From Faecalibacterium langellae (GTDB lineage Bacteria > Bacillota > Clostridia > Oscillospirales > Ruminococcaceae), in the NCBI RefSeq assembly GCF_002549775.1, contig NZ_NMTR01000021.1:744001-808000 (forward strand): DNA of 64,000 nt, in the 5' to 3' direction. Every line of letters starts with the position of its first letter. Position 1 is the stretch's first letter. Below are positions 25,171 through 26,808 of the stretch, in pieces. The notes beneath the pieces were generated by a model. The model saw only the letters and a list, made by a program, of their open reading frames with translations. It made no database searches and had not been told where the DNA came from. The position numbers and the translations under genes are program-made.

Positions 25171-25198
25171 ATTTCGTATAATGCACGTTATGCGAAAT
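25171..25198. other. dif: dif-like Xer recombination site
   Basis: ATTTCGTATAA, six-base centre TGCACG, TTATGCGAAAT: the exact 11-6-11 geometry of chromosomal dif. The right arm keeps the TTATG and AAAT ends of the E. coli XerD arm. By hand, 19 of 28 positions match E. coli dif and 18 match B. subtilis dif as I recall them. The two arms are inverted copies with a single mismatch. A tyrosine recombinase gene ends 366 bases away. Confidence 0.75.
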
Positions 25199-25563: not shown

Positions 25564-26808
25564 TCATCGGGCTCCCGATGTCGGATCCGATGGTTCCGAA
25601 AGCGCACCTTCAGGCAGATCCAGGCCAAAGCCTTCCTTGGCGGCACCTGTAAGCTCTGGTGCAGGGGCATTCTCATCCGATTCGTCTTGGAATTCCGGCG
25701 AAGATACGTTGCTTTCATTCAAAGACGCATTAGATTCCCCAAGGGCCTTCCCTGCCTCGGTTCCTGTTGTATCCAAGCTTGCACGAGAGGTCTTCTTACG
25801 CGAGACCTTGCCCAGCGGATTTTCCTCAATAGCCGTCCGCACCTGAAATTCCTGTAGGTGCGTGTAAATTTGGGTCGTGGAAACGCTGCTGTGGCCCAGC
25901 AGCTGCTTGAGGGTCAGGATATCCACATTGCCGGTCTGGTACATCAGCGTGGCAGCGGTGTGGCGCAGCTTATGGGTGGAAAAGCCCTTCAGCCCGGCTG
26001 CTTTCATGGCACCGGTCACCAGCTGTTCCACCCTTCGGTTGCCGATGCGCTCCTTGCGCCGCCGGGTGATGAACACCGCACGCTCCTTCGGCAAAAGCCC
26101 TTCCATCGTGTTGCGCTTGTTCAGGTACAGCTGCAGCGCCTCCATGCAGGCATCGTTCAGGTAGACCATGCGCTCTTTATGGCCCTTGCCAAACAGCCGA
26201 ATCTGACGGTTTTCCATATCGATGTCTTCCAGATCCATGCCCACCAGCTCTGCCAGACGCATCCCGCAGTTCAAAAACAGTACCACCATGCAGTAATCCC
26301 GCTCCGGGAAGTCGCTCTGGAACTGGGTGCTTTCCAGCAGATCCATGGACTGCTCTGCCGTCAGATATTTAGGCAGGACTTTATCCTGTTTAGGCGGATG
26401 GATGGCGGCTGTGGGGTCAGCTTCCAGCTTGTTGACCTGATTGACCAGATAATCATAGAAGCCGTGCAGGCTGGCGAGCCGCCGAGCGGTCGAGGACTTT
26501 TTGTTGCCGCATTCGCTGCCCAGAAAGTACAGATATTCGTAGATATCTTCCTTTGTCACGCTGGCCCAGAACGCGGCATCCAAGCCTTTCGGGTCGATAT
26601 CCTTCAATTCGCAGTCCGCCGGGACAAGCCCGCGCCGACGCTTCATAAAGCGGCTGAACCCGCGCAGGTCGCAGTAATAGCTGAAGGCGGTGTTTGCGCT
26701 CTTGCCCGCGATCACTTCCAGATAGCGCACATAGGCCACGACGTCCGGCGAGGCATCCTCAAAGGGCTTGTGCTTGCCCGGATTTTTTTCATCAAGGTAG
26801 ATCGACAT
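25564..26808 (-). CDS. Tyrosine recombinase, XerC/XerD-like
   Basis: 414 residues. An N-terminal SAM-like core-binding domain (about 20-130) is followed by the catalytic domain with Arg in CGMRLAEL, Lys in GKGHKER, HKLRH, LLGHSSV and the nucleophile Tyr in TQIYTHL (about residue 315). About 99 residues follow the Tyr, roughly 80 more than in usual XerC/D; this tail is rich in Ser, Glu, Asp and Pro and looks disordered. A dif-like site lies 366 bases beyond its stop codon. Chromosome dimer resolution is the likely role. It starts nine bases after radA, with a single operon likely. Confidence 0.88.
   Translation of the reverse strand: MSIYLDEKNPGKHKPFEDASPDVVAYVRYLEVIAGKSANTAFSYYCDLRGFSRFMKRRRGLVPADCELKDIDPKGLDAAFWASVTKEDIYEYLYFLGSECGNKKSSTARRLASLHGFYDYLVNQVNKLEADPTAAIHPPKQDKVLPKYLTAEQSMDLLESTQFQSDFPERDYCMVVLFLNCGMRLAELVGMDLEDIDMENRQIRLFGKGHKERMVYLNDACMEALQLYLNKRNTMEGLLPKERAVFITRRRKERIGNRRVEQLVTGAMKAAGLKGFSTHKLRHTAATLMYQTGNVDILTLKQLLGHSSVSTTQIYTHLQEFQVRTAIEENPLGKVSRKKTSRASLDTTGTEAGKALGESNASLNESNVSSPEFQDESDENAPAPELTGAAKEGFGLDLPEGALSEPSDPTSGAR

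Follow-up and report, generated by a model that had tools for sequence, protein, structure and literature searches.

A dif-like site and an adjoining Xer gene as a candidate dimer-resolution module

Faecalibacterium very probably resolves its chromosome dimers with a module made up of a dif site located at the terminus of replication and a single Xer recombinase that would bind both arms of that site. Both components lie in the window, by which we mean the whole 64,000-nucleotide stretch of F. langellae DNA analyzed here. Read from sequence, this proposal agrees with a preliminary description of the locus as a homomeric (one-recombinase) module with a site of classical geometry, and it draws support from (i) the linkage of site and gene, (ii) the terminus position, (iii) the single copy of the site, and (iv) the joint change of both arms across genera. 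The features concerned are listed below.

25171..25198, no strand: dif-like recombination site, 28 bp, 11-6-11; single copy in the source genome (G000), pattern found genus-wide
25171..25181, plus strand: left arm ATTTCGTATAA, putative recombinase-binding arm; agrees with the right-arm complement at 10/11 positions
25182..25187, plus strand: central region TGCACG, nonpalindromic
25188..25198, minus strand: right arm TTATGCGAAAT, putative recombinase-binding arm
25564..26808, minus strand: Xer-type tyrosine recombinase, 414 aa, with complete catalytic residues and a long, variable C-terminal tail
24937 (G000:C11:768937), no strand: maximum of the cumulative G-C skew, taken to mark the replication terminus; it and the site are 234 bp apart

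The 28-mer, ATTTCGTATAATGCACGTTATGCGAAAT, reads as ATTTCGTATAA-TGCACG-TTATGCGAAAT, so that the dif layout proposed for these bases is borne out, and its arms were rightly called nearly identical, since they differ at one position only (position 7 of 11, T versus C). The arms of E. coli dif, which had been described as clearly unlike, are symmetric at 6/11 positions in the MG1655 record, compared with 10/11 in the window site; the two sites are identical at 19/28 positions. The arms of the window site contain 20 palindromic nucleotides, and an excerpt of PMC2731167 gives an average of 16.3 of 28 nucleotides in the palindrome for Proteobacterial dif. The TGCACG center would set the direction of the site. 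A search of G000 (2.82 Mb in 78 contigs) that allowed up to three mismatches returned this one site, as the single-copy expectation of the preliminary description had it, and the same tolerance gave no match in 100 dinucleotide-shuffled versions of the window. A separate observation is that the 28-bp core of P1 loxP agrees with the Faecalibacterium site at 22/28 positions; for the F. gallinarum site (L056), the agreement is 24/28.

On its other side, the site is flanked by a convergent amidase gene (Amidase_3), and it therefore sits between the amidase and recombinase genes. Such a place between convergent genes would suit a transcription terminator or a chance hairpin, but we regard this explanation as scarcely credible, because the site is A+T rich with no T run after it, shuffled sequence yields no chance match, and the spacing of 6 and the arm length of 11 recur across genera.

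The stop codon of the recombinase gene faces the site across 365 bases, close to it as first described. The encoded protein contains the Pfam domains Phage_integrase and Phage_int_SAM_1 and retains the residues aligned to E. coli XerD R148, K172, H244, R247, H270, and Y279; all six are likewise kept in 14 aligned clade members. Following the tyrosine, the aligned clade members have NPL, SPL, or SPF, whereas XerD has HPRA. The tail after the catalytic tyrosine (window 25564-25810) is long and variable; by a simple pattern, its median length is 84 residues across 23 proteins of the genus, compared with 31 for the family and 19 for Clostridia XerD. Among its relatives, the 15 nearest named ones are from Faecalibacterium (71-81% identity in the best segment), and the remaining 32 loci are from Clostridia (38-45% identity). 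The protein scores below the profile cut-offs for XerC (208.5 versus 335.15), XerD (199.9 versus 329.6), NCBIfam XerA (185 versus 220), and NCBIfam XerS (137 versus 267 bits), and because these cut-offs are not reached we do not place the module in XerS, XerA, or XerCD. At the sequence level, it is closer to XerD (99.2 bits) and XerA (97.3 bits) than to the XerH structure (49.8 bits). The PADLOC defense-system library contains no match for the recombinase.

Conservation and linkage of site and gene in Faecalibacterium

The xer gene was found in 28/31 genomes of the genus (22/22 of the well-assembled ones), with one match each at E ≤1e-20, and the site pattern in 29/31 (again 22/22). The preliminary description had proposed looking in relatives for linkage to the same gene; indeed, gene and site share a contig and lie no more than 3.9 kb apart in 27 of the 28 xer-bearing genomes, the exception being G129, where they fall on separate contigs. 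Relative to the gene, the site is downstream in 23 of these 27 genomes and upstream in 4, and the latter are the most divergent members of the genus, three with 45-50% identity and one (G143) with 40% over a fragment. Scored over 10-bp arms, 13 of the 29 genus sites are perfectly symmetric, with a single mismatch in 9 and two mismatches in 7.

An additional, weaker dif-like match elsewhere occurs in 3/31 genomes (G120, G130, and G132). This second 28-mer has a common place in all three (L307:9857, L308:9868, and L309:9930), directly 3' of a gene read as nrdR and 49-137 kb from the main site, and is possibly a decayed or secondary site; no dif-like 28-mer is present at the nrdR-side place in G000. 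G123 has two identical copies of the site (G123:C56:3923 and G123:C121:4040), one of them close to a contig end, which represent either an assembly overlap or a site-flanked element.

Position of the site at the inferred replication terminus

The skew was computed over 400 kb centered on the site, whose start is G000:C11:769171, and the short distance from its maximum (see the list above) agrees with the expectation, also put forward in the preliminary description, that the site should be near the terminus. Further, in eight single-contig Faecalibacterium chromosomes, the site lies at 175.3, 182.8, 192.7, 191.5, 180.0, 177.5, 189.9, and 189.4 degrees from dnaA. In a single-contig relative (G145), for which twenty 20-kb samples gave a noisier picture, skew was positive in 7/9 samples between dnaA and the site and negative in 9/9 after the site. 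The site may thus serve as an exact terminus marker for such genomes.

Over the same 400 kb, GAGAAGGG (the SRS octamer of B. subtilis) has 16 copies oriented as expected and 4 the other way, and GGGCAGGG, the E. coli-type octamer, is divided 28 versus 19 by direction; we draw nothing further from these octamers. A 40-kb stretch of unusually strong positive GC skew (0.09-0.16; G000:C11 ~589185-629184) starts beside a phage-type integrase gene and is probably a mobile element.

Palindromic sites with lineage-specific arms across the family

We extended the comparison to a family set of 119 genomes from 118 genera, in which the xer gene is present in 98/119 genomes and in 82/90 of the good ones. 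The exact Faecalibacterium motif occurs in 8/119 of these genomes and its reversed pattern likewise in 8, so this search showed no excess and was uninformative, a difficulty resolved by starting from the gene and seeking any 11-6-11 palindrome nearby. Conservation in the family is visible only if lineage-specific arms are allowed.

In this way, 89 xer loci of other genera (out of 96 such genomes) were examined. Perfect 11-6-11 palindromes of any sequence are found at 62/89 loci versus 0.1 expected from two-base-block shuffles, and palindromes of at least 10/11 at 78/89 versus 4.6 expected; at 9/11, the excess is small (88/89 versus 44.5). Under a stricter criterion (AA..TT inner ends and at least 9/11 symmetric positions), a site is present at 72/89 loci and lacking at 17/89. 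Of these 72 sites, 56 are perfect, with 20 distinct arms among them; chance may account for some of the rest. None of the 72 has a palindromic 6-bp center.

The family consensus arm is ATTTCGCTAAA, and arms vary among genera (for example, ATTTCGCTAAA versus ACCGCACTAAA). The two arms depart from the consensus alike in 95 position-by-locus cases and differently in 22, a ratio inflated by the choice of sites by symmetry. Such joint change across genera argues more strongly for one protein on both arms than a single sequence can. At up to three mismatches, the consensus is matched in 62/119 genomes (53/90 good ones), compared with 1/119 for a reversed control, and is absent from the other 57/119. 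More than one copy occurs in 9 of the 62 matching genomes, xer and a consensus-like site are on different contigs in G002, G056, G060, G062, G092, and G100, and in G011 they are ~11 kb apart. We also read ~10 kb on each side, contig permitting, of 17 xer loci that lacked a site close by (11 from the family and 6 from other families), among which a perfect AA..TT site appeared only in G178 (1.2 kb downstream) and G071 (2.2 kb).

With regard to position, 71 of the 72 stricter sites precede the gene, among them every one of the 56 perfect sites; 70 lie no farther than 400 bp upstream, and the median distance is 76 bp. The upstream position is telling because position played no part in the choice of sites. 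This placement is what would be expected if the palindrome were an operator of the xer promoter, bound by Xer or by a repressor, and not a recombination site. We nevertheless consider an operator alone very unlikely, since (i) the site is downstream in 23/27 Faecalibacterium genomes, up to 3.9 kb off, and is still conserved, (ii) it sits at the skew switch point, (iii) its center is asymmetric, as at all 72 loci, which an operator does not need, and (iv) viral contigs bear the site without the gene (see below). The site could serve in both roles, as an operator and in recombination.

A further explanation, that the site is the attachment site of an integrated mobile element beside its own integrase, has in its favor that a tyrosine recombinase adjoins a short site and that similar sites occur on viral contigs. 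However, the gene is present in 22/22 good genomes of the genus and 82/90 of the family, and its neighbors look like housekeeping genes, namely the amidase and flanking genes for a MutS2-type protein and a RadA-like ATPase, which we take from their domains to be mutS2 and radA. The absence of a flanking duplicate follows from the single copy of the site in G000. An attachment site is, in our view, extremely improbable.

One recombinase or two, and relatives in the Clostridia

The preferred reading requires one recombinase for both arms. Among seven Phage_integrase matches in G000, one is clearly Xer-like; compared with it, three of the other six reach at most 28 bits and three have no match at E 0.001. 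A genome-wide search with the XerD profile at E ≤1e-40 gave the same single match, and the second xerC/xerD gene for which the preliminary description had proposed a search was thus not found in G000 by either route. That a second gene was missed is unlikely, yet possible, because G000 is a draft of 78 contigs. In the family, 3/119 genomes exceed the XerD cut-off (G000 is not among them), and 12/119 contain a XerD-like match scoring 221 bits or more, which makes the one-recombinase state the rule in the family but not universal. In G033, G084, G098, and G116, the XerD-like gene lies within 2 kb of the other xer.

In a class-wide set, 75/156 genomes contain a match that exceeds the general Xer cut-off, and, among the matches listed, many of these 75 encode a ~299-residue protein and a second, ~330-residue protein at ~200 bits. 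The thirty top-scoring ~299-residue proteins are nearer to E. coli XerD than to XerC; genomes with XerD and a ~330-residue Xer together include G165, G169, and G264. We read 20 loci of the ~330-residue proteins, of which nine (L224, L231, L233, L235, and L238-L242) have an AA..TT palindrome of at least 10/11 no more than 800 bp upstream and one (L234) has a perfect palindrome 1.2 kb downstream, and the remaining 10 have no such palindrome in the stretch read. At 30 canonical XerD loci of the class, two AA..TT palindromes of at least 10/11 were seen (L205 and L213), which we set aside as chance or terminators. Among 32 loci of distant relatives (L064-L095), an AA..TT palindrome of at least 10/11 is upstream in L075, L078, L083, L092, and L095, is placed elsewhere in L073 and L088, and is lacking in the remaining 25.

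A tree of 77 rows unites the family proteins with the ~330-residue proteins and their relatives in a single group of 60 rows (100/100), to which neither the 15 Clostridia XerD nor XerC and XerD of E. coli belong; the E. coli rows carry a long-branch warning, and the tree leaves out XerS, XerH, XerA, and XerL.

These data bear on whether the system could instead be heteromeric, of the XerC/XerD type, with an unrecognized second recombinase on the other arm. The imperfect symmetry of the window site (10/11), the XerD-like protein in 12/119 family genomes, and the many other Clostridia with an over-threshold XerD in addition to the ~330-residue Xer would fit such an arrangement. Against it, G000 holds no second strong Xer-like protein, perfect palindromes are found at 62/89 family loci, and perfect palindromes adjoin the ~330-residue Xer even in G165, G194, G265, and G161, which encode an over-threshold XerD. 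We therefore judge a heteromeric system to have very little probability and retain the reading of one Xer on both arms.

For such a one-protein module, we propose that four copies of the recombinase would bring two dif sites together and, on the model of Cre, XerH, and XerA, would exchange strands at the borders of the 6-bp center, whose asymmetry would fix the direction, so that the exchange would turn a dimer into two monomers. FtsK, whose gamma domain is present in 29/31 genus genomes (one apiece), would bring both sites into contact at the septum and may also activate recombination. A passage in PMC5357621 names the C-terminal XerD residues RQ-QQ for FtsK contact; the corresponding segment is unlike in our recombinase, and FtsK activation, if any, may accordingly use other contacts.

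Comparison with known Xer systems

XerC/XerD-dif employs two recombinases in E. coli and most bacteria. The Faecalibacterium module shares with it the 28-bp 11-6-11 site, the terminus position, the GC-skew switch, the FtsK gamma domain, and the catalytic residues, but E. coli has two recombinases and arms symmetric at 6/11 positions, whereas Faecalibacterium has one recombinase and arms at 10/11.

Single-recombinase modules are already known as XerS, XerH, XerA, and XerL. The XerL/dif system of Legionellales, as described in the accessible text of PMC9765430, has a single recombinase and perfectly symmetric 10-bp arms; like our module, it combines one recombinase with arm dyad symmetry, a terminus position, and a mimic of the site on a mobile element. 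By that description, it differs in its host group and has arms without homology to known Xer-binding motifs, whereas the 11-bp arms of Faecalibacterium resemble ordinary dif. Archaeal XerA/dif is a precedent for a classical 28-bp site with one recombinase, its 11-6-11 site having few or no arm mismatches according to excerpts of PMC2958812 and PMC5357621; in Thermococcales, the same excerpts place the site away from xerA and report recombination in vitro without an accessory protein. Unlike XerA/dif, the Faecalibacterium module is bacterial and gene-linked, with the FtsK gamma domain in the genus. XerS/difSL of streptococci and lactococci likewise pairs one recombinase with a genetically linked site, and in Firmicutes, but that site is an atypical one of 31 bp (from the part of PMC5357621 available to us), compared with the classical 28 bp here. 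In XerH/difH of Helicobacter and Campylobacter, one recombinase is linked to its site in most species, but the site is said to resemble difSL, not classical dif (PMC2731167, in excerpt).

Against this background, what appears to be new is an Xer clade of Clostridia that stands apart from both Clostridia XerD and E. coli XerC/XerD and is paired, as far as its loci suggest, with sites of classical length. A 2017 review, in a passage of PMC5357621, assigns XerCD and FtsK to almost every sequenced bacterium, Firmicutes included, and names streptococci and lactococci as the exception among the latter; another study predicted dif in 97% of its Firmicutes genomes, with failures in two Clostridium species (PMC3025954, in the portion consulted). 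Our literature search on single-recombinase dif/Xer and phage-plasmid dif, which also took in part of PMC8138268 and covered sources other than subscription journals and preprints, found no paper with both Faecalibacterium and "dif site" and, among the matches listed, no recognized single-recombinase system of Clostridia; within that scope, novelty is unproven.

More broadly, we would give an even chance to the following hypothesis: a Clostridia-wide clade of ~330-residue Xer proteins acts alone on palindromic dif sites with co-evolving arms and has replaced XerCD; XerD without XerC may keep another job, such as SMC unloading; and phages with copies of the host site borrow the host enzyme for resolution or integration. 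In B. subtilis, XerD is mentioned in the accessible part of PMC13342612 in connection with unloading of the SMC complex at the terminus, and the Clostridia genomes would offer a way to test the role of XerD once it is no longer a resolvase. A large family of gut Clostridia that includes Faecalibacterium appears to use one protein and a palindromic site, and its dozens of natural protein-site pairs with unlike arms form a set for decoding how Xer proteins read their arms, as well as a possible source of compact Cre-like recombinases.

Dif-like sites on viral contigs

Exact searches of IMG/VR matched the Faecalibacterium pattern in 8 stretches, the family consensus in 15, and a third arm type in 13, whereas the reversed controls, run for the first two patterns, gave 0 and 0. 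The stretches concerned (L310-L332 and L333-L345) bear symmetric dif-like sites, some of them in sets with a common site (L324, L329, L330, and L332; L311, L313, and L317). A Xer gene is encoded in 3/36 stretches (L320, L327, and L334), which are for that reason probably host DNA; the other 33/36 have none in the sequence examined, some of them being covered over just a few hundred bases. The site lies outside ORFs of at least 70 residues in 20 of the first 23 stretches. Selected proteins of four viral loci include a terminase in L324, L326, and L317 and an integrase in L319. It is likely, judging from these stretches, that the phages use the host recombinase.

L324 resembles C. difficile phage and plasmid records over 26-27% of its length at ~70% identity. 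A C. difficile plasmid with phage genes, partly related to L324, has no palindrome above 9/11 in the stretch read, and the same stretch encodes a tyrosine recombinase of its own.
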